Shown here: one piece after another, positions 10,045 through 52,216 of the stretch
Numbering within the stretch: the first letter of the stretch is position 1
How the letters are laid out: each line of letters starts with the position of its first letter
Assembly (NCBI GenBank): GCA_018622495.1
Contig: CP076021.1
Span: 1,488,501-1,552,500 of the forward strand
Origin: Mycoplasmatota bacterium
Lineage (GTDB): Bacteria > Bacillota_I > Bacilli_A > Acholeplasmatales > Acholeplasmataceae
Length of the DNA stretch: 64,000 nucleotides
Reading direction: 5' to 3'
Notes under the pieces: model-generated
The model's input: the letters and a program-made list of their open reading frames with translations, nothing else
Told to the model about the DNA's origin: nothing
The model's database searches: none
Translations under genes and position numbers: made by a program

Positions 10045-10282
10045 ATTTCATCAATCTTTGCTTGGGACAAATACAATGCAATTTTCTTTTTCACTGAATT
10101 CTTTTTTCTCCTTCTATTTCTTACTGTGTATTAGCACTATTAAAACCATACTGACGATTACATCGGGCTTTTTCGATTTTGATTGAGTCTCTCCAAATCC
10201 TGATGTTCCTCAACAAGCAAAAGAAAAATGGAAACCATACCTCACTTTGCGTATAATTTCCATTGTTGGCTTACATTTAATA

Positions 10283-10812
10283 CTAGAATTGAACTGGCAT
10301 GTCATTTTTGGAATTAGGCTTGTTTCTTACTTCAAAAAAGAGAATAATTGCACACCCAACAATAATATATACATCGGATATGTTGAAAATTGTGGATCCA
10401 ACAACCGGCAATATTGGCATCTGCAAATAATCAATAACATAGCCAACACTTAACCGATCAAACAGATTTCCAGTTGCACCGGCAAGTACTAATCCCAACG
10501 CAACCCTTATATAAACCTGCTTTGATTTTACAAGAACAGTACTAATCAAGATGCTCATAACTAATCCAATCAAAACAATCGTCCATTTCATTCCACTAAA
10601 CATTCCAAATGCTACACCGTAGTTTCTGATATAACCAATATTTAGAAATCCAGCAAAAACTGTCTCAGTTTCATTAAGTCCGTAGTTTGTCGAGAAATAT
10701 ATCTTTAGTATCTGATCTACTGCAAAGAGAATCGCAACAAATACAATCGTTGCAAATATCGCTTTCGTTCTTTTCGTAATGATTGCTTTTTGTGTTGTTT
10801 TGATAAATCCAA
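10283..10812 (-). CDS. lspA: Accessory lipoprotein signal peptidase II
   Basis: The product has the LspA motifs in order: NYGVAFGMF, GNLFDRL with the first catalytic Asp, and FNISDVYIIVG with the second catalytic Asp, within four membrane helices. The C terminus is intact. The N-terminal frame contains no normal start codon before residue Met at 10,603. One extra A in the run near 10,787-10,791 would join it to TTG 10,812 next to an AAGGAG site, so the 5' end is either frameshifted or mis-sequenced. The gene sits directly downstream of the metal ATPase, as extra lspA genes do in Gram-positive cadmium/zinc resistance islands. Confidence 0.75.
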
Positions 10813-10863
10813 CTCTCCTTTATCATAATGTTTTTTCACAATATATCATTTTACATTTTCTCG

Positions 10864-12840
10864 TCAATTGACTTGTTTGAGTAACCGAAGTCCATTAAGT
10901 ATAACTACTAATGTACTTCCTTCATGAATCAACACTGCATATGACATGTTCATTAACCCAAGAATATTAACAGTAACTAGGAAGAGTACAACAATCATCG
11001 AAAAGATAATATTTTGAATAACGATGCTTCTCAATTTCTTTGCAACTTTATGTGTATATGCGAATTTGTTCAGATCATTTTTCATCAAGACAGCATCAGC
11101 TGCATCAATGGCAATGTCAGTTCCTTCGCCCATAGCAACCCCGATATCGGCAGCAACAAGTGCAGGAGCATCATTTACACCATCTCCTAACATCGCTACA
11201 ATAGAGTAATTTTTCTTAAGATCTGTAATAATCTTAGATTTATCTTCTGGAAGAACATTGGCACGAACTTCGTCAATTTGAAGTTGGCGGCCGATCGCTT
11301 CACCAGTTCGTTGAGCATCTCCAGTGATCATCAATGTGTGGATATTATTATCTTTGAAGTATTGTATTGCTTCCTTTGAACTCTTTTTAGGAACATCCTG
11401 AATGGCTATAAGCCCAAGTACTTCATCATTGGAACCAAAGTAAACTACTGTTTTACCTTCAAATTCATATTTTTCAGTATGCTTTGTGATTTCGTCTGAT
11501 ATGGTTTTGTATGATGAAGGTTTCCCTATACTAAAGTTTGCATCACCATAAGTTGCTTTTAGTCCAACTCCAACAAGATTTTCAACATCAAATTCAAGTG
11601 TATCGACATCATGATAATAATTGATAATTGCATCCGCTAGTGGGTGATTTGACTTTTTCTCCATCGATACTATGATTGAGTTATATTCGCGTTTCTTGTA
11701 TTCTTTCACTTTTGATACAAAGTAAGTATCAGTAACCACTGGCTTCCCTTGTGTGAGTGTTCCTGTTTTATCAAAGGCAACAGCGCCGAGATCAGATAGA
11801 TTCGACAAATATGAACCACCTTTGAATAATACTCCACGCTTCGCAAGATTACTAATTGCAGAAAGTGTAGCTGGAATATCTGTTGCCGCTAATGCACATG
11901 GTGATGCGCCAATCAGAAAGACCATTGTTCTGTAAAAACTCGTTTCCGCTGTCCATTTGAACAAGAAGAGTCCTAAGAGATAGAATACTGGAGCCAACAA
12001 AATAACAATTGTCACATATACAGGCTCGATTCGCTTAATCATCGCTGCTGTTTTAGAAATGCTCTTCTGAGTCTGGCTAACTAATTGAACAATTTTTGCA
12101 AACACAGTATCTGAACTTTCTTTTGTTACTTCCATAACTAAAGTTCCTGTTCCATTGATTGTACTTCCAAATAATGGATCACCTGCTACTTTATCAACAG
12201 GAATACTTTCACCTGTAATAGAAGCTTGGTCAACTGCAGACTTCCCTGAAATTACCATACCATCAGTCGGAATCTGATCCCCAGTTAAAATGCTCAAACG
12301 ATCACCAACTTTTAATACACTAACATCAACAATCTCGATTTCACCGTTTTCATTAATTAATCGAGCAGTGGTTGGATTCATTTTGAGAAGATTTGTGATA
12401 TCCTTCTTGCTCTTTCCTTCTGCATATTCTTCAAGGAAATGTGCTCCAGCGAAAATCAATATCAGAAGTGCTGCTTCTCGGTATTCACCAATAATCAATG
12501 CACCTGCAGCAGCAATCGTCATTAATAAGTGGATATTTGGGGTGAACCGTTTCCTTTTAATCGTTAAAGTAACTGTATCCTTAATTCCTTCTATGATAAT
12601 ATGATAACCTGAAAGGAAGAGGGCCAATAGATACATGATGTTTTTAAACAAATCATTGTTTACAAACATTGCTAGTAAATAAACTGCTAGTCCTATAAAG
12701 AATAAAATAAGTGAATTTCCACCTCCGTGGCTGTGTTCGTGTCCTTCATGGTCGTGATCGGTATGTTCATTTACCTTATGATTATGCTCTTTTCCTTCTT
12801 CATGTTTATGATCATGAGAATGGTTATGCTCGTTTTTCAT
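10864..12840 (-). CDS. P1B-4 type heavy-metal transporting ATPase, His-rich N terminus
   Basis: 658 residues. The first 40 residues are a His/Asp/Glu-rich tail (HNHSHDHKHEE and several HEHSH blocks), a likely metal-binding region. Then come paired membrane helices, the actuator motif TGESIPV, the intramembrane metal motif SPC (GASPCALAAT), phosphorylation site DKTGTLT and hinge GDGVNDAPAL. The last helices carry HEGST. SPC plus HEGxT defines P1B-4 pumps (Co/Fe/Zn/Cd efflux) rather than CPC-type CadA or CopA. It lies between an ArsR repressor and an extra lspA, so it is a metal-induced export operon. Confidence 0.92.
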   Translation of the reverse strand: MKNEHNHSHDHKHEEGKEHNHKVNEHTDHDHEGHEHSHGGGNSLILFFIGLAVYLLAMFVNNDLFKNIMYLLALFLSGYHIIIEGIKDTVTLTIKRKRFTPNIHLLMTIAAAGALIIGEYREAALLILIFAGAHFLEEYAEGKSKKDITNLLKMNPTTARLINENGEIEIVDVSVLKVGDRLSILTGDQIPTDGMVISGKSAVDQASITGESIPVDKVAGDPLFGSTINGTGTLVMEVTKESSDTVFAKIVQLVSQTQKSISKTAAMIKRIEPVYVTIVILLAPVFYLLGLFLFKWTAETSFYRTMVFLIGASPCALAATDIPATLSAISNLAKRGVLFKGGSYLSNLSDLGAVAFDKTGTLTQGKPVVTDTYFVSKVKEYKKREYNSIIVSMEKKSNHPLADAIINYYHDVDTLEFDVENLVGVGLKATYGDANFSIGKPSSYKTISDEITKHTEKYEFEGKTVVYFGSNDEVLGLIAIQDVPKKSSKEAIQYFKDNNIHTLMITGDAQRTGEAIGRQLQIDEVRANVLPEDKSKIITDLKKNYSIVAMLGDGVNDAPALVAADIGVAMGEGTDIAIDAADAVLMKNDLNKFAYTHKVAKKLRSIVIQNIIFSMIVVLFLVTVNILGLMNMSYAVLIHEGSTLVVILNGLRLLKQVN

Positions 12841-37241: not shown

Positions 37242-38286
37242 TTATTTTAGTAAATCAATAAGTTCTGCTTTTTTAAGGGTTGAGTATCCTGATAGGCCTC
37301 GTTCTTTAGCGAGTGATTTTAACTCTGCTACAGTCTTACTAGAAAAATCTTCTACTTTTGTTTCTTTAACTGCTTCTTTAGCTTTAGGTGCTTCTTTCAC
37401 CTTAGGTGCTGCTTCTACTTTAGGAGCAACTTTAACTTCAGGAGCTGGTGTAACTTTAACTTCTGGTGCTTTTTCAACAGGTTTTCTATATTCTCTAGGT
37501 CTTCTGTCTTCTCTTGGTCTTCTATCTTCTCTAGGTCTTCTGTCTTCTCTTGGTTTTCTAGGAGTTACTTGAGCTGCGATTTCATCATCGATTTTCTCAA
37601 CAACGCCACCTTGACCTTCAGTTACTGCATTAGCCATAACATTTGTAATTAATTTCACAGCACGAATTGCATCATCGTTTGCTGGAATAATATAATCAAC
37701 GTCATCAGGATCACAGTTAGTATCTACAATACCAAATACTTTGATACCTAATTTACGTGCTTCTAAAATTGCATTCTTTTCTTTTCTTGGATCAACGATG
37801 AAAATAGCTTCTGGAACTTTTTTTCATATCTTTGATTCCGCCTAAGAATTTTTCAAGACGTTCTCTTTCTTTTTTAAGTTGTTGAACTTCTTTTTTAGGT
37901 AATTTTTCAAAAATACCGTCTGCTTCTAATTTGTATAATTCATGTAATCTTGCAATACGACGACGGATTGTTTTAAAGTTAGTTAATGTTCCACCTAACC
38001 ATCTTTGATCAACATAAAATTGACCTGTACGAATTGCTTCTTCTTTAACTGCTTCTTGAGCTTGTTTCTTTGTACCGATGAATAAAACTTTTCCTCCATC
38101 TTTTACAATATTAACGAGTGCTGCATAAGCTTTTTCGATTTCTACAGATGTTTTCTTTAAATCGATAATGTATATGCCATTTCTAGATGTGAAAATGTAG
38201 GGTGCCATTTTTGGATTCCAACGACGTGTTGCATGACCAAAATGTACGCCTGATTCTAATAATTGTTTCATTGAAACGACTGCCAT
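37242..38286 (-). CDS. rpsB: Ribosomal protein S2 with long C-terminal extension; frameshifted
   Basis: The N-terminal part ([39 protein letters not shown]) is typical S2. Near 37,820-37,826 a run of seven A breaks the frame after GGIKDMKK; six A give [16 protein letters not shown] and the rest of S2. After the normal S2 end (about residue 240) the frame runs on for about 110 residues: three PREDRR tandem repeats plus PREYRKP, an Ala/Lys/Glu/Pro linker, and a C-terminal [27 protein letters not shown]. This last part looks like a SAP/Rho-N-type nucleic-acid-binding helix-extended-loop domain. The gene is essential and apparently single copy here, so the shift is likely a sequencing error. Confidence 0.9.
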
Positions 38287-41728: not shown

Positions 41729-41822
41729 CTACAGCGGACGCATTAGAAAACCGCCACATATGTGTTCGTTCTAATCCGACATCCCATGATTAGACACTTT
41801 ACGCTTTCTAATTACTCTGTAG
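41729..41822 (-). ncRNA. Tetrahydrofolate riboswitch (THF-I)
   Basis: On the minus strand the segment begins ACAGAGTA and ends GCGTCCGCTGT, which pair as P1. In between are the conserved GGGATGTCG, AACGAA and GGCGGT elements of the THF riboswitch. The ligand is reduced folate; binding should favour the terminator and lower folT expression. Confidence 0.93.
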
Positions 41823-41864: not shown

Positions 41865-42521
41865 TTATAATCGCCAATCAATTTCTTTTATATTTTTTGA
41901 TTTTAAATATGCATTTGTTTTAGAGAAAGGTTTTGATCCAAAGAATCCTCGATATGCTGATAATGGTGAAGGATGCGCAGATGTAATAATTTTATGTTTA
42001 TGTTGATCAATATATTTAGAAAATGCTTTAGCTTTTGATCCCCATAAAATAAATACAACATGTGGTTGCTCTCTATTTACGGTCTTTATCGCTTCTAAAG
42101 TAAATTGTTCCCAACCCTTTTTTTGATGACTAAGTGGTTCATGTAATTCAACTGTTAATACAGTATTAATTAATAATACACCTTGTTTAGCCCAATTGCT
42201 AAGGTTACCAGTTTCAGGATAACTTACATTTAAATCACTAACCAATTCTTTATATATGTTTTTTAAAGATGGTGGGAATTTAGTAGTTTCTACACTAAAT
42301 GCTAAACCATGTGCTTGATGATAGTTATGATAAGGATCTTGTCCAATAATCACAACTTTTACATTTTCTAATGGTGTTAAATCAAAACATGTCAATCGTT
42401 TATCTTTTGGAGGCAGTATAACTTTATTAGCATCTTCTAATGTCATAAACTTTTCTAAATCTTTATAATATTGTTTTTGACTTTCATCTAGTATAAAATC
42501 ATGCCACGTCATTTTTTTCAT
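41865..42521 (-). CDS. ung: Uracil-DNA glycosylase
   Basis: 218 residues. It contains VVIIGQDPYHNYHQAHGLAF (catalytic Asp in GQDPYH), GVLLINTVLTV, and HPSPLSAYRGFFGSKPFS with the catalytic His. It removes uracil from DNA. It overlaps the end of the signal-peptidase gene by 23 bases and may be carried on the same transcript. A downstream Met (42,512) is an alternative start. Confidence 0.95.
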   Translation of the reverse strand: MKKMTWHDFILDESQKQYYKDLEKFMTLEDANKVILPPKDKRLTCFDLTPLENVKVVIIGQDPYHNYHQAHGLAFSVETTKFPPSLKNIYKELVSDLNVSYPETGNLSNWAKQGVLLINTVLTVELHEPLSHQKKGWEQFTLEAIKTVNREQPHVVFILWGSKAKAFSKYIDQHKHKIITSAHPSPLSAYRGFFGSKPFSKTNAYLKSKNIKEIDWRL

Positions 42522-43092
42522 CTGTTTCTTCTTCTGGTTTTTTCTTTAGATATTTAACTAATGCAATAACGATAATAACATTAACAATAATCAATCCTAA
42601 GAAAACAGGATCCAAATATTGTGTAAAGAAAATAGTAAGCCATCCAACAAAAGGAATTCTAAAAGCATACTTACCAACTACATCTTCATAAGTAAGTGTG
42701 ACAATATTTCCTTCTGAGTCTCTAATGGTATCAACACTATCATTATTATCACCTTGAGTAATATAATCTCCATCAACACCAGTATCAATGTATCTATGAA
42801 TGACTTCTGCTTGTGCATACCCACCATTTGTTGTTGGTAGATAGTTGTTAAATACAATAATATCTTGCTCATCAATATCATTTTCACTTGTGTTAATAAC
42901 TACAATTAAATCACCTTTATTAATTGTTGGTTCCATACTCTCTGATATTACTGTAGATATTTTAAAATTAAAAACATCTAACATTTTTTCAGGAGCAACC
43001 GCACTTATGACTATATAAAACACTAAAAAAATAGTGACCATATAAAATAATATATTCATTAAAATGTGTCTTAATGTTTTTTTATCATTCAT
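42499..43092 (-). CDS. sipW: SipW/ER-type signal peptidase I, catalytically intact
   Basis: About 197 residues with an N-terminal membrane anchor, a C-terminal membrane helix and a basic/acidic tail. The catalytic Ser lies in ISESMEPTINKGDLIVV, the His of the ER-type (Ser-His-Asp) peptidases in AEVIHRYI, and the Asp in TQGDNNDSVD. This His in place of Lys defines the SipW/archaeal-eukaryotic branch. Start 43,092 (MNDKKTL) overlaps the upstream gene's stop by eight bases. It should process the AYW-type signal peptides of the three exported proteins encoded upstream. Compare tapA-sipW-tasA in Bacillus. Confidence 0.88.
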   Translation of the reverse strand: MNDKKTLRHILMNILFYMVTIFLVFYIVISAVAPEKMLDVFNFKISTVISESMEPTINKGDLIVVINTSENDIDEQDIIVFNNYLPTTNGGYAQAEVIHRYIDTGVDGDYITQGDNNDSVDTIRDSEGNIVTLTYEDVVGKYAFRIPFVGWLTIFFTQYLDPVFLGLIIVNVIIVIALVKYLKKKPEEETDEKNDVA

Positions 43093-43732
43093 ATGAATCA
43101 CTATCCTCATCTTCATTTTTTTGGTCATGTTGTATAAATATAATATAGTAAGAAACACCTGCGATAATGATATAAACAATAATTGTTCCAATAAATCCTC
43201 TTAATGTACTCATACCATATGAAAATAATTGAAAAAATGTTGCATCCTCTTTATAAATACCTATAAGATCATCGCTTGTATACAATTCAATTGTTTGATT
43301 AGCATACGTCGCTTCAAACGTATTGTTAGTAAAATCAATTGCGACAACTCTTTTTTCCATATTAATATCATCTTCAGGATTATGAACTACAACGTAATCC
43401 CCTAATGCTAAATCATCATAATCAAAATCTTCAATCACAACAATCGTTATTTCTAAAATAGGTGGTGATTGATCTTTTTTAACAACTGCTATTGCATCTG
43501 TACCTTTAATAGTTGTTATTGTTTGAGCATCTAAATAAAAAGGTAATGACAAATATAATAAGTGAAGAATAAGAAACGCAATAACTATCCAATAGATAGT
43601 TTTAACTATTTTAATAACTTTAGCTTCTTCATCTAAAATTTTTATAGAATTTATATTGATAGAATCTCTTGATTCTTCTATTAACAACAATAGCTCATTT
43701 GTTGAAAGTAAATTTTCCAACGATATACACAT
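43085..43732 (-). CDS. Signal-peptidase-like membrane protein lacking catalytic residues
   Basis: Up to 215 residues: a cytoplasmic N-terminal segment of about 50 residues, a membrane helix (IYWIVIAFLILHLLYL), an extracytoplasmic domain, a second helix near the C terminus and an acidic tail. The LGDYVVVHNPEDDI segment matches the beta-strand after the catalytic site of SipW proteins. No SxMEP or HR motif is present; the corresponding place reads VVKKDQSPP. It is probably a pseudoenzyme partner, scaffold or substrate-positioning subunit. The ATG at 43,732 is close to its ribosome site, and TTG 43,720 is an alternative start. Confidence 0.65.
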   Translation of the reverse strand: MCISLENLLSTNELLLLIEESRDSININSIKILDEEAKVIKIVKTIYWIVIAFLILHLLYLSLPFYLDAQTITTIKGTDAIAVVKKDQSPPILEITIVVIEDFDYDDLALGDYVVVHNPEDDINMEKRVVAIDFTNNTFEATYANQTIELYTSDDLIGIYKEDATFFQLFSYGMSTLRGFIGTIIVYIIIAGVSYYIIFIQHDQKNEDEDSDSYE

Positions 43733-43748
43733 CCTTTAAGAAGAATCA

Positions 43749-44312
43749 CTAATCTTTTGTTATTTCTTCCTTTTTTGGTTCTTCTTTTTTACTGCTCTTA
43801 ACAAGTATGACAATTGCTGTTATAATACCAACATTTAATAATACAGCTGCAATCCCAAATCCACTTGATAAAAAATCAACAACATAACCAAATCGTGGCA
43901 ATTTGAAAGCATATCCACCTAAGATGTCATCTTCTAATAAATTGGGTGTTGCAGGAACACTAGATCCTTCTGCATTAACTTTGAAAACTGAAATGTCATT
44001 AGTGGTTGTAATACTGTAAACATAATAAGTAACTAAATCTGCATCACCATCATAATCTATATCAGCATAAAAAGTGATTAAATCACCAACTTCTAGCTCA
44101 TCTGGATCAACACGATTTATAAATACTAAATCATATGGGTTAATGCGAGATTCCATCGTATCATATTTAGCAATATATGCTTTAACACCAACGGTATTTA
44201 AAGTTAAATCCGGAAATGCACTTAGCATGATAATAAACACTATAAGTAATCCTAAAACCACATAAAGTGCATAAAATCCTATATTTTTTAAACTCTTAGT
44301 TGCGTTTTTCAT
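43749..44312 (-). CDS. Signal-peptidase-like protein with altered catalytic Ser
   Basis: About 187 residues with an N-terminal helix, an extracytoplasmic domain and a C-terminal helix followed by KSSKKEEPKKEE. The active-site region reads KYDTMESRINPYDLVFINRV, aligning with SESMEPTINKGDLIVV of the intact paralogue, but Ser is replaced by Thr and Pro by Ser. No HR motif follows. Start 44,312 is set by AAGGGG eight bases upstream. It is the second of three tandem paralogues and is probably inactive or of changed specificity. Confidence 0.7.
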   Translation of the reverse strand: MKNATKSLKNIGFYALYVVLGLLIVFIIMLSAFPDLTLNTVGVKAYIAKYDTMESRINPYDLVFINRVDPDELEVGDLITFYADIDYDGDADLVTYYVYSITTTNDISVFKVNAEGSSVPATPNLLEDDILGGYAFKLPRFGYVVDFLSSGFGIAAVLLNVGIITAIVILVKSSKKEEPKKEEITKD

Positions 44313-44383
44313 TAATGACACCCCTTAAATATAAAGTTTCAATCTAATGCCATTATATCACAATTCTTTTTTGTTTGATATTT

Positions 44384-45685
44384 TTATTGACCTACAATAA
44401 TCCAATCGCTTGAAACACCTGGTTCAGCGGTAGTTGAAGCCACATTAGCAGTATATACTGCACCACTATGATAGACTGTTTCACCATTATAATATACGTT
44501 CGTATCATACCATTCATAACCACTTAATAAATTCCAAGAATTAGCAATCACTCCTGGTGCATATTGATTAGCATTAGTCGCATTAACGACTACATATACT
44601 AGATCATTATAAATAGCATAATCTCCATTTGCATATGTAGATGTAACTTCATAATCTAGGGAACCTGAATCATTCCAACTATTTGCAGCTGTTCCTGGTT
44701 CTACTGATGAATTACTTGCATTTGCTAAAATCCAAACTTCACTATCCCACATCACTAAATCATCTGTTACATATGTGTTATATTGTTGCCATTGATCCGT
44801 ATTTATAGCTTGCCAATATCCATAAGATGCAGCTGTTCCTGGTTCATTTTTTAATCTGTTTTTTTGAGCTACTAAAGCCTCATATATAAGTCCGTTATAT
44901 AAAACATATTTTGTATCTTTAGTTACTGATGTACTAGTCCATGTAGAAATAGTCACTTGAATCCACGCACCATTCGTGCCTGGCGTTGAACTTGATGCCC
45001 ATCCACCATTGGTTGTATAATAGTAATTTCCATTATATAAAACAAGTGAATTATCAGAATATACATAATTAGAATTATATGTTAAATCCCCGACAATACC
45101 CCATTCTACTTCTGAACCCGGAACTGATGTAGTGTAATAATCATGATATTGCCATAATTGTCCATTATAATATACAATTTCATCTAACGTGGTTGCTTGT
45201 CCTGTTGTCCAAGAAATTGAGTCTTCAATTAAACTATCCCATTGATTATTTGCAGCAGTACCTGGTTCATCGCCACTACCTTCATGTTGTGCTTCATAAA
45301 TTACACCGTTATGATAAACAATTTCTCCATCAAAATATGTGACTGTTGCATGCCAATCTAAATCTCTAAGATAACGCCAATTATTGGCATTAGATGGTTC
45401 TTCTCCTGCAGTTGAATTATAATGTCTATACATATAGATATCACCTTCATACCAAACAAGATCATCTAAGCTATAGTTTTCTGTTTCATCCCAAAGGGTA
45501 ATACCGTCTGGTACATTATTTGCACTAGACCACTGCCCAATAGCAACCATACCATCAGCATTATCATTTGCTCCTGATACGCCATTAGCATCAATCCAAT
45601 AAGCCAATGTTTGAGGAGTAAAAAATACAACAATAAAAAATATACTTAAACTAAATATTATCATTTTTCTATATATGTTCTTCAT
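44384..45685 (-). CDS. Secreted protein with about eight CBM5/12-like repeats and SipW-type signal
   Basis: 433 residues. The signal peptide (IFSLSIFFIVVFF) ends TLAYWIDANG, the AYW pattern of SipW substrates. The rest is about eight repeats of 42-48 residues. Each has an aromatic/beta core of the form Y..GDxVYYNGxIYEA and a PGTAANxW closing motif (for example GEIVYHNGVIYEAQH then EPGTAANNQW). This is the consensus of chitin-binding CBM5/12 modules. There is no catalytic domain, so it should be a polysaccharide-binding surface or matrix protein. It is very Trp/Tyr/Asn-rich and almost free of Lys in the repeats. GGAGG precedes the start. Confidence 0.8.
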   Translation of the reverse strand: MKNIYRKMIIFSLSIFFIVVFFTPQTLAYWIDANGVSGANDNADGMVAIGQWSSANNVPDGITLWDETENYSLDDLVWYEGDIYMYRHYNSTAGEEPSNANNWRYLRDLDWHATVTYFDGEIVYHNGVIYEAQHEGSGDEPGTAANNQWDSLIEDSISWTTGQATTLDEIVYYNGQLWQYHDYYTTSVPGSEVEWGIVGDLTYNSNYVYSDNSLVLYNGNYYYTTNGGWASSSTPGTNGAWIQVTISTWTSTSVTKDTKYVLYNGLIYEALVAQKNRLKNEPGTAASYGYWQAINTDQWQQYNTYVTDDLVMWDSEVWILANASNSSVEPGTAANSWNDSGSLDYEVTSTYANGDYAIYNDLVYVVVNATNANQYAPGVIANSWNLLSGYEWYDTNVYYNGETVYHSGAVYTANVASTTAEPGVSSDWIIVGQ

Positions 45686-45712
45686 TATATTTATTCCTCC
45701 TTTATAAAACTT

Positions 45713-45735
45713 AAAAGCGGCTATCAGCCGCTTTT
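45713..45735 (-). terminator. Intraoperon terminator after the TasA-like gene
   Basis: AAAAGCGGCTGATAGCCGCTTTT is a strong hairpin between the 175-residue exported protein and the repeat protein. It could allow high expression of the first and reduced expression of the following genes. Confidence 0.75.
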
Positions 45736-45756
45736 ATTATTCTGTTTACTTAATAA

Positions 45757-46284
45757 TTAAGCAACTGTAACTGTAAATGTAAGCCCAATAGTTAAAGTAC
45801 CATTTGCGATTGCATCGTATGCTGCTTGATTAGCAGGTTCGTTTGTGAATTCTACGTTAATAACAACATCTAATGAAGTGCCTGCAGTAATTGTTTGGTC
45901 AGCAGGTATTGTTACTGTCATTAAACCTGAAACATCAGTACTACCTATCATAACAGTTCCTAGTGTAACTGCTAAAGTCCCTATATCTCCATCAACATCT
46001 TCTACTGTACCTTCCCATAAAATTGAGAATGTTAAATCTACATCATCAACATCGCCAGCAGCTGCGTCATTACCAACTGGAACTAATTTACCTGCACTTG
46101 ATTCATCATTAACTGTTACTTCTGTAGCTACTGAAACATCATCACCAGCACCAATTGTTATAGTACCTGATGCAGTATCTGCGTTACCTGTAGCTACTGA
46201 ATTTTGCCAATATGCGAATGTCAATGTTGACATAACTACCGCTAACATAACTAATAAACTTACGACTAATTTTTTTGATTTCAT
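45757..46284 (-). CDS. TasA/camelysin-like exported protein
   Basis: 175 residues. The hydrophobic signal (LVVSLLVMLAVVM) ends TFAYWQNSVATGN. The mature part is a low-complexity beta-rich domain, acidic and Ala/Val/Thr-rich with no Cys and few Lys, containing LVPVGNDAAAGDVDDVDLTF and INVEFTNEP. LVPVG and a VEFT-x-EP strand are also found in modified form in the neighbouring protein at 46,334. The layout is that of TasA/CotN-type fibre subunits cleaved by SipW. AAAGGAG lies upstream of the ATG. Confidence 0.75.
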   Translation of the reverse strand: MKSKKLVVSLLVMLAVVMSTLTFAYWQNSVATGNADTASGTITIGAGDDVSVATEVTVNDESSAGKLVPVGNDAAAGDVDDVDLTFSILWEGTVEDVDGDIGTLAVTLGTVMIGSTDVSGLMTVTIPADQTITAGTSLDVVINVEFTNEPANQAAYDAIANGTLTIGLTFTVTVA

Positions 46285-46333
46285 AATTTTTAAATCTCCT
46301 TTTTGTTTTCAATTTTTTTAATTTTTATTTTTT

Positions 46334-46918
46334 TTAAAATGTATTTTCTTTCGGTTCTACACTAAATCTTAAATCAAACGAAATTGTTTGACCATGTAAA
46401 GCTTCATATGCAGCAACCGAATCATCTACATTTATTAAGCTTTCATCTAAACCTTCTCTGCTAGCTTCTTCAGCATCAATAGGTTACGTAATTGTTACAA
46501 CGACTGTTATAAATACTTTTGAATTGTACAAGTCGTTCTCGCTGATATCTTCTGTACCATTTATCGTAACATTTATCAAATCACTATATGCGCTTGATCC
46601 ACCAACCATAACATTTATTGATTCAACAATTAAATTAACTTGCGTTACTAATGTTTTATCAATATTAACTTCATAAGTGAAAACCACTTCATCAACTTCT
46701 CCAGCAAACCATACATAATTTTGAGGAACTAGCATACCTTCAAAATCTTCATTTGTCTGATTTACTATAAGACTTGCATCTTCTTCAGTAAACTCTATTG
46801 TTACATTTGATTGCACCGAAGTATTTGTCCAGTATGCAAATGCAGCAGTTGAAGTGAATCCAAGAGTTACTGCTAGAAGTAAAACAATGATGAGTTGTAT
46901 CCCTTTCCTTTTAGACAC
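46334..46918 (-). pseudogene. TasA-like exported protein interrupted by an in-frame TAA
   Basis: The start is GTG 46,918 (SKRKGIQLIIVLLLAV), seven bases after GGGAGG; the ATG at 46,951 lies inside the upstream terminator and is not used. The signal peptide ends AAFAYWTNTSV. TAA at 46,484-46,486 stops it after VTIT. The same frame then continues PIDAEEASREGLDE and AAYEALHGQTISFDLRF to 46,334, which resembles AAYDAIANGTLTIGLTF at the end of the neighbouring paralogue. The full protein would have about 194 residues. Either the stop is an error or the first gene of the operon is decaying. Confidence 0.7.
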
Positions 46919-46941
46919 TGCATCGCCTCCCAACAAAAGAA

Positions 46942-46968
46942 AAGTCAACATACACTGTACGTTGACTT
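46942..46968 (-). terminator. Riboswitch-controlled terminator
   Basis: AAGTCAAC and GTTGACTT pair around GTACAGTGTAT and are followed by TTTTCTTTT. The 5' arm AGTCA-CGTAC is complementary to GTACG-TGACT just upstream (46,987-46,998), which can form the alternative antiterminator. Confidence 0.8.
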
Positions 46969-47019
46969 AAATTACAAATTATTTGCAGTCACCGTACATC
47001 CCAAAAAATCTTTGGAATA

Positions 47020-47100
47020 AAATATGGCAACTGGCTACCTTGACTAGGCCCTATAGTTTTGCGTCGCTAAATCCCTTTAGCTTTGCTTTTAGCATATATA
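47020..47100 (-). ncRNA. GEMM-type riboswitch (cyclic di-GMP-I class)
   Basis: The minus strand has GCAAAGCTAAAGGGATTTAGC (P2 with a GGGA tetraloop; split as GCTAAA-GGGA-TTTAGC), then GACGCAAA, then CTATAGGGCCTAG and GGTAGCCAGTTGCC. These are the conserved core, tetraloop and receptor of the GEMM-I aptamer. It sits between a consensus promoter and a terminator ahead of the SipW-substrate operon. Whether the ligand is c-di-GMP or a cGAMP variant depends on one base that I did not place with certainty. Confidence 0.85.
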
Positions 47101-47142
47101 AAACTTCTTAAATTTTTGCAACAATTTCCTTATTGCCCTTTT

Positions 47143-47171
47143 ATTATATATATAACACAATGCATTGTCAA
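47143..47171 (-). promoter_or_regulatory. Consensus vegetative promoter of the riboswitch/SipW operon
   Basis: Minus strand TTGACA and TATAAT with a 17-base spacer: a perfect sigma-A-type promoter about 40 bases upstream of the aptamer. Confidence 0.85.
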
Positions 47172-47254
47172 GGATAAAACTTTAAAAATGTCTTTTTATT
47201 AACTTTCATCACATATTTCAGCTAAAATCAGCTTTCTATATGTAATATAGAGAA

Positions 47255-48268
47255 TTATTTAATTAAACTTGCTAATTTTTTAACAGTTCTTACTAATTGG
47301 CTAGTATAACTCATTTCGTTATCATACCAAGAAAGTACTTTAACTAATGTTTTACCATCCACATTCATTACTGATGTAGAGTTAGCATCAAATAATGAAC
47401 CATAAGTTGTACCAATAACATCACTAGATACGATTGGATCTGTAACATATGCAAATGATTCGTTAGCAGCAGCTTTAAATGCAGCATTTACTTCTTCTAC
47501 TGTTGTTTCTTTTTTAACTTCAACAACTAAATCAACAATTGATCCAGTAATTGTAGGAACACGAAGTGCAATACCATCTAATTTACCTTTTAATTGAGGT
47601 AATACTAAACCGATTGCTTTTGCAGCACCAGTTGATGTAGGAACGATGTTTTGAGCAGCAGCACGTCCACGTCTTGACATAATACCTTTTTTATGAGGTG
47701 AGTCTTGAAGTACTTGATCAGCTGTATAACCATGAACAGTTGTCATGTAACCACCAATAATACCAAAACTATCATCTAATACTTTAGCTACTGGAGCTAA
47801 ACAGTTAGTTGTACATGAAGCACCACTTAAGATATCTTCATTACCTTCTAATACATCATCATTTACATTATATACGATTGTTTTAACGCTACCTTTAGCA
47901 GGAGCAGAAATAACAACTTTTTTTGCACCAGCTTCTAAATGCCAACCAGCTTTAACTTCATCAGCAAAGAAACCTGTACATTCTAATACAACATCAACAT
48001 CAAATTCTTTCCAAGGTAATAATTTTGGATCTCTTTGACTTAAAATTGGAATTCTTTTTTCTCCAACAATTAAATCTGAACCTTCAAAAGAAACAGAACC
48101 TGATTTAAAGTTACCTTGTGCAGTATCATATTTTAATAAATATGCTAATGTTTCTGCATCAGTTAAATCGTTAACTGCAACTACATCGAAATTTGAATCC
48201 TCTGATAATAAACGATAAGCAAGACGTCCAATACGTCCAAACCCATTAATTGCTACTTTAATAGCCAT
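47255..48268 (-). CDS. gapA: Glyceraldehyde-3-phosphate dehydrogenase
   Basis: About 337 residues: [17 protein letters not shown] (NAD binding), [18 protein letters not shown] with the catalytic Cys, TVHGYTADQ and [16 protein letters not shown]. It catalyses the NAD-linked oxidation of glyceraldehyde 3-phosphate in glycolysis. The start is 48,268 (MAIKVAI) with AGGAGG upstream; a longer version has no ribosome site. Confidence 0.97.
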
Positions 48269-51989: not shown

Positions 51990-52034
51990 TATCGATTAAA
52001 GTATAATAAAGTTGCGATGATAAGAAAATAGTAA

Positions 52035-52216
52035 TTTATATATAAACATCTTTAGAGAGTCGGGATGCTGAAAGCCGATGGTGTGTCTATAAATGAATGG
52101 GATCTTTGAGCACAAAAGTATGTCGGCTATAACGACTAGAGGGCTAGAAGCAATTCTAGAACTAAGGTGGTACCGCGATGATTCGTCCTTAGATAAATAT
52201 ATCTAAGGACTTTTTT
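52035..52216 (+). ncRNA. T-box leader of trpS
   Basis: The T-box core AACTAAGGTGGTACCGCGAT lies at about 52,160 and is followed by a terminator stem (GTCCTTAGATA/TATCTAAGGAC, then T6). A stem I region with AGTCGGGATGCTGAAAG and a TGG triplet in AATGGGATC could be the Trp specifier. Uncharged tRNA-Trp should favour antitermination. Confidence 0.9.

Follow-up and report, generated by a model that had tools for sequence, protein, structure and literature searches.

Which cellular output is controlled by the many cyclic di-GMP (c-di-GMP) enzymes of wall-less Acholeplasma-group bacteria? In 2008, 14 GGDEF/EAL proteins were noted in Acholeplasma laidlawii, unlike in the other mollicutes then sequenced (PMC2408644). 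A locus in contig CP076021.1 of an Acholeplasmataceae bacterium would provide a concrete answer. In the window, by which we mean the whole 64,000-nucleotide stretch analysed, six genes follow one another on the minus strand in the order t1, t2, a carbohydrate-binding module (CBM) repeat gene, SipW1, SipW2 and SipW3, and together with their leader occupy positions 47171 to 42499. We consider it probable that they form an operon, induced by c-di-GMP, through which a wall-less bacterium makes a SipW-dependent surface fibre of TasA-like type; the fibre function is what we infer from the predicted fold and the signal-peptide class. The genes, and a hairpin between two of them, are:

46484..46918, minus strand: t1, first of two exported TasA-like proteins, with AFAYW signal, GTG start and in-frame TAA (open reading frame and orthologues)
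45757..46284, minus strand: t2, second TasA-like exported protein, FAYW signal (predicted model, top structural match TasA)
45712..45736, minus strand: terminator-like hairpin between t2 and the CBM gene, 11 pairs, 5 of them G-C, weak T tail
44384..45685, minus strand: CBM gene, exported protein with LAYW signal and four carbohydrate-binding CBM5/12 repeats (PF02839)
43749..44312, minus strand: SipW1, SipW-like, with Thr and Tyr here at the positions of the catalytic Ser and His; dyad intact in 13/19 orthologues
43085..43732, minus strand: SipW2, degenerate but conserved paralogue of SipW; catalytic Ser and His both lacking in 18/18
42499..43092, minus strand: SipW3, intact endoplasmic reticulum (ER)-type, S26B-like signal peptidase (TIGR02228 and invariant residues)

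The leader upstream of these genes comprises five elements:

47143..47171, minus strand: sigma-70-type promoter TTGACA-17-TATAAT, 12/12 consensus positions, 17-nt spacer
47023..47097, minus strand: c-di-GMP-I (GEMM-I) riboswitch aptamer, full length (1-87) against RF01051
47026..47032, minus strand: 3′ strand of the aptamer, AGTTGCC, alternative partner of the antiterminator (sequestering helix, duplex of -11.7 kcal/mol)
46987..46997, minus strand: antiterminator GTACGGTGACT, pairing with the 5′ arm of the terminator
46942..46968, minus strand: intrinsic terminator of the riboswitch expression platform, 12-pair stem, T-rich tail TTCTTTTGTT

Aptamer, antiterminator and terminator thus stand between a strong promoter and the operon, as the original prediction, made from the letters of the DNA, had it. 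The promoter lies exactly where it was placed, and a perfect match occurs only once in the 5.1 kb scanned (42300-47400). The GEMM-I covariance model, run over the 64-kb window, scores the aptamer at 57.7 bits, well above the gathering threshold of 35 (E=1.2e-8), and the alignment contains the conserved core: the G before CAAA, the GACGCAAA segment and the 3′ GCC. The ligand-contacting bases of this core we take to be those established for Vc2. The proposed explicit antiterminator matches the terminator 5′ arm in a duplex of -12.2 kcal/mol (z=-4.6 versus shuffles). AGTTGCC is part of the closing stem of the aptamer and can pair alternatively with GGTGACT of the antiterminator.

The association between riboswitch and operon is conserved. 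To guard against selecting loci by their riboswitch, we scanned 84,980 species genomes with the t1 protein alignment, blind to the RNA. This yielded 23 loci, all from the Acholeplasmataceae group (genome titles read Acholeplasmataceae, Acholeplasma or Tenericutes, with a few metagenome-assembled genomes labelled Bacillota or Erysipelotrichaceae). GEMM-I lies directly upstream of t1 in 22 of them, that is, in every readable locus; in the 23rd (L107) the aptamer starts (AATGTAAAAGGCAAACTTAGGGAAA) and then runs into a stretch of N. Complete loci read gapA-GEMM-t1-t2-(CBM)-SipW1-SipW2-SipW3-ung; folT, under a tetrahydrofolate (THF) riboswitch of its own, usually comes next. The search for the same gene order in related genomes, suggested with the original prediction, thus came out in its favour: none of the readable loci found by protein alone lacked the riboswitch and lay among unrelated neighbours. 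One genome (G014, locus L054) retains gapA, GEMM, a gene of 111 amino acids (aa) and ung, apparently through loss of the operon.

To determine how the leader might respond to its ligand, we folded 19 leaders up to the terminator 5′ arm, with the aptamer strand either free or held in the aptamer. The mean pairing probability between antiterminator and terminator arm rose from 0.25 with the strand free to 0.65 with the strand held, and it increased in 18 of the 19 leaders. These predictions favour an ON switch. At low c-di-GMP, the 3′ strand of the aptamer would pair with the antiterminator region, the terminator would form and transcription would stop; at high c-di-GMP, the aptamer would retain its 3′ strand, leaving the antiterminator to capture the terminator 5′ arm and allow read-through. 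SipW3 would then cut signal peptides of the A-Y-W type. Outside the membrane, both TasA-like subunits would polymerise, taking with them the CBM-repeat protein as a carbohydrate-binding subunit that would attach cell or fibre to a chitin-like or other polysaccharide. SipW2, and in this lineage also SipW1, would be non-catalytic, acting as partners of SipW3 or holding subunits during assembly. Transcription past t2 is probably reduced by the hairpin that separates it from the CBM gene.

The exported proteins carry the argument for a fibre. We built AlphaFold models from native alignments for t2 of the window and for t1 of a same-genus orthologue, with predicted local distance difference test (pLDDT) scores of 77 and 78.5, and compared them with 350,542 Protein Data Bank (PDB) chains using Foldseek. 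The top match was TasA (5of1) for t2 and the TasA fibre (8aur) for the t1 orthologue, in line with the earlier designation of both as TasA-like, with weak absolute scores. The matches suggest that t1 and t2 resemble TasA in predicted fold, which is support rather than proof. The model for SipW-dependent signal peptides, TIGR04088, scores the same-genus t1 orthologue at 20.4 bits against 19; it matches at E<=0.01 in just 3 of the 23 t1 orthologues, and t1 and t2 of the window are not among its hits. The BsaA family model TIGR04090 matches neither t1 nor t2. Membership of either protein in this family or in the camelysin family PF12389 was rejected, since neither model matched. The third exported protein contains four stretches of PF02839 (38.5 bits against a gathering cut-off of 26.2) and was correctly described as a carbohydrate-binding repeat protein.

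Could the riboswitch control the operon while its products form a coat or act as separate adhesins, the likeness to TasA being that of a generic beta-sandwich joined to a SipW-type signal? The fold matches are weak in absolute terms, the regulon also includes giant single proteins (3,334 and 3,710 aa) resembling adhesins, and the CBM protein hints at binding. However, TasA came first for two separately modelled proteins, and donor-strand pilins rank among the next PDB matches of the t1 model. Known fibre operons (TasA; BsaA, PMC7395162) share, moreover, this arrangement of two small subunits and a dedicated SipW. We regard a coat or separate adhesins as rather unlikely.

Several observations nevertheless weigh against a c-di-GMP-induced fibre operon. 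The TasA fold matches are suggestive only (Foldseek E 2e-3 to 4e-3, template modelling score 0.33-0.39), neither t1 nor t2 matches PF12389 (camelysin/TasA) at E<=1, and no TapA/YqxM-type family is found among the NCBIfam matches of the six operon proteins. In 8 loci the CBM gene is either absent or reduced, which means that the system can do without the CBM protein. In the window leader the predicted shift is smaller than in its relatives (0.58 to 0.78), and the sequestering helix reaches z=-1.4, against about -2 to -4 in many orthologues. Finally, t1 contains an in-frame stop codon in this genome.

This stop raises the question of whether the operon is decaying here, with t1 a pseudogene and SipW1 dead, so that the window copy may not work while those of relatives may. 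The frame of t1 stays open for 49 codons past the TAA (to 46334), the extension aligns with intact relatives, and t1 orthologues measure about 190-197 aa. Decay finds further support elsewhere in the genome: an exported-protein gene behind an internal GEMM (L006:7933-8600) is split by a frameshift relative to its 219-aa orthologue in L038, and a lone GEMM-I is followed by a GYW-signal protein gene interrupted by an in-frame stop (L007:7569-8211). Against it, rpsB, encoding 30S ribosomal protein S2 (37792-38286, minus strand), is frameshifted in the same assembly, its reading going on in another frame; in an essential gene, such a break suggests that sequencing errors were left uncorrected in the contig. 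The estimated completeness is 93%, though the genome is a single 1.6-Mb contig. Five other loci that are otherwise complete likewise have a degenerate SipW1. A sequencing error is a serious possibility for the t1 stop and we claim no biological loss; decay of the operon seems to us unlikely.

The three SipW-like genes themselves call for a revision. They had been described as three tandem signal-peptidase paralogues; three relatives of SipW are indeed present, but only SipW3 keeps the Ser-His pair here. On TIGR02228 (cut-off 51.85), SipW3 scores 73.6, SipW1 falls below at 42.7 and SipW2 is marginal at 16.1, although the SipW2 profile aligns with that of SipW3 with a probability of 97.8 (E=1.2e-12). 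Ser52, Met53, Pro55, His99 and Asp121 of SipW3 are invariant in 18/18 loci, and it is the only one of the three with the Ser-His dyad in every locus. The SipW1 dyad is absent in 6 of 19 loci (the window and five others), with Thr or Gln and Tyr or Ala in its place. Judged by these residues, the window genome encodes one intact enzyme with degenerate partners, and a set of three signal peptidases is ruled out by the missing catalytic residues in SipW2 and in SipW1 of the window. The conservation of a dead SipW2 in two orders (see below) points to a non-enzymatic role. Tentatively, and with more doubt than confidence, we propose that the three SipW-like proteins form one membrane complex in which the dead members select or hold subunits, coupling cleavage to polymerisation, the whole being switched by c-di-GMP through RNA. 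We found no description of a signal-peptidase-derived assembly factor of this kind in the literature searched.

Returning to the direction of the switch, class I c-di-GMP riboswitches are known in both directions (PMC6366702). An OFF switch, in which c-di-GMP stops expression, would agree with the functional class I switches of Clostridioides difficile, which are all OFF (PMC6366702), and the antiterminator can already form in the free window leader (0.58). Yet the strand that blocks the antiterminator belongs to the aptamer, so ligand binding should release the antiterminator, and the folded leaders shift toward it with a single exception; the class I riboswitch Bc2 of Bacillus thuringiensis is likewise an ON switch for an adhesin (PMC6366702). 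Six leaders (L098, L099, L100, L105, L112, L118) have a weak antiterminator or no convincing second terminator by hairpin search. In several of these the 3′ strand of the aptamer appears, by eye, to pair instead with a ...GGC-TTTTT segment, an arrangement that would itself make a terminator and thus still follow ON logic. An OFF switch is, in our assessment, distinctly improbable, and an operon induced by c-di-GMP remains the preferred reading.

Since all Acholeplasmataceae loci share identical flanking genes, they are not independent, and the riboswitch might have been kept merely through the conserved gapA-ung neighbourhood. A phylum-wide scan led to a family (f10) outside the order Acholeplasmatales. 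In this second order, one locus (L197) reads GEMM-t1-t2-CBM-like-SipW1-SipW2-SipW3 with unrelated flanking genes on both sides, and close versions occur in three more genomes: two loci (L199, L201) read GEMM-t1-t2-CBM-like-SipW-SipW, and L193 is a shorter version. Profile scores tell the three SipW types apart there, SipW2 being the middle gene of L197 (117.6 bits). Bystander linkage to gapA-ung is largely ruled out by the riboswitch retained among other neighbours in the second order, and we regard it as very unlikely; the same genomes also carry a GEMM at another SipW operon. The riboswitch-operon link, which holds across two orders and is not explained by gapA-ung because the second-order loci have other flanks, is stronger than first stated.

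Two side observations concern the second order. In L197, L199 and L201, a further GEMM-I on the other strand points towards the operon, and the protein behind it (~170 aa) has weak similarity to t2. In L191, L195, L196, L198 and L200, further GEMM-I aptamers are followed by a conserved gene row that lacks SipW (about 343, 337, 345, 480 and often 882 aa).

The operon belongs to a wider regulon. The window genome has four further c-di-GMP-I aptamers, and GGDEF proteins at ten places. Within the family, GEMM-I occurs in 46 of 88 genomes; all 29 small genomes of genus g12 are without it. A protein with an A[YFW][WFY] signal lies within four genes of the aptamer cluster in 71 of 81 clusters; such signals are carried by 44% of near genes and 3.7% of other genes (Fisher value 2e-29, which overstates independence, the species being related). 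Across 12 genomes, 35 of 45 SipW-type matches lie <10 kb from an aptamer (expected 1.4).

A second conserved operon extends through other families of the order. In many genomes GGDEF/EAL genes come first. Between one and four aptamers in tandem follow, then exported proteins of the A-W-F type, SipW, an AAA ATPase and a DUF2357 protein; a second SipW is often present, and after it come a further aptamer and additional exported proteins. The copy in the window genome is:

L006:7253-17300 (G000:C1 about 1226250-1236300): second operon of the same genome, with GEMM-I and SipW genes

Its order is GGDEF/EAL, two tandem GEMM-I, AWF proteins, SipW, AAA ATPase, DUF2357, AWF protein, SipW and GEMM-I, and after the last aptamer come exported proteins, one of >2,400 aa. 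This operon (L006, L038, L045) shares GEMM-I, exported proteins (here of the A-W-F type), SipW and the regulon with the window operon; it differs in its upstream GGDEF/EAL genes, tandem aptamers, AAA ATPase, DUF2357 protein and giant exported proteins. The window operon is thus one of two conserved c-di-GMP-riboswitch SipW loci in an order-wide regulon. The claim that a fibre-like system is tied here to c-di-GMP sensing stands as to the conserved link between riboswitch and operon; the locus itself is not singular.

The tapA-sipW-tasA operon of Bacillus subtilis has one SipW, the TapA anchor and protein regulators; we know of no riboswitch in it. It resembles the window operon in having a SipW-type peptidase beside small exported subunits, TasA being the top fold match. 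Unlike it, the window operon has three SipW-like proteins, a c-di-GMP-I riboswitch, a CBM-repeat protein and a wall-less host. The sipW-bsaABCRSD operon of Clostridium perfringens (PMC7395162) likewise has a dedicated SipW, an exported matrix protein, known there to polymerise, and a terminator inside the operon between the major subunit and later genes; it differs in its BsaA family (TIGR04090), which t1 and t2 do not match. In regulation, the closest counterpart is the Bc2/cap adhesin of B. thuringiensis (PMC6366702), which shares the class I aptamer, transcriptional read-through, the ON direction (predicted here) and a surface protein as product, whereas Bc2 governs one collagen-adhesion gene with no SipW or TasA-like link. 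In C. difficile, a c-di-GMP riboswitch turns on a surface fibre operon, type IV pili, as we propose here, but through a class II aptamer and type IV pilus machinery (PMC6366702).

Full-text literature searches returned nothing on a c-di-GMP riboswitch with SipW, Acholeplasma or Mollicutes, and no paper tying a class I c-di-GMP riboswitch to SipW-dependent TasA-like proteins. Known parts are put together here in a way that is new within the reach of these searches, as are the control by RNA and the conserved, catalytically dead SipW. The locus links class I c-di-GMP riboswitches directly to putatively SipW-dependent proteins of predicted TasA-like fold, and the dead but conserved SipW2 may be a fibre assembly factor of a new kind, which can be tested. 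Carriers are available in culture, among them Peloplasma aerotolerans M4Ah and, probably, Xianfuyuplasma coldseepsis zrk13, with A. laidlawii PG-8A for the second operon, so the claims are open to testing.

Other features of the regulon and the neighbourhood deserve mention. Single GEMM-I aptamers precede the giant proteins of 3,710 aa (L046, A. laidlawii) and 3,334 aa (L048), which are probable surface adhesins. The AAA ATPase and DUF2357 protein of the second operon (L006:11992-13536 and 10125-11981) have a McrB-/McrC-like layout and sit inside the SipW operon across most of the order's genomes. Downstream of the window operon and ung, a THF riboswitch (73.8 bits; 41730-41821, minus strand) precedes a folT-like transporter and is conserved in relatives, and a T-box leader (104 bits; 52008-52193, plus strand) is likewise conserved near the locus in relatives.

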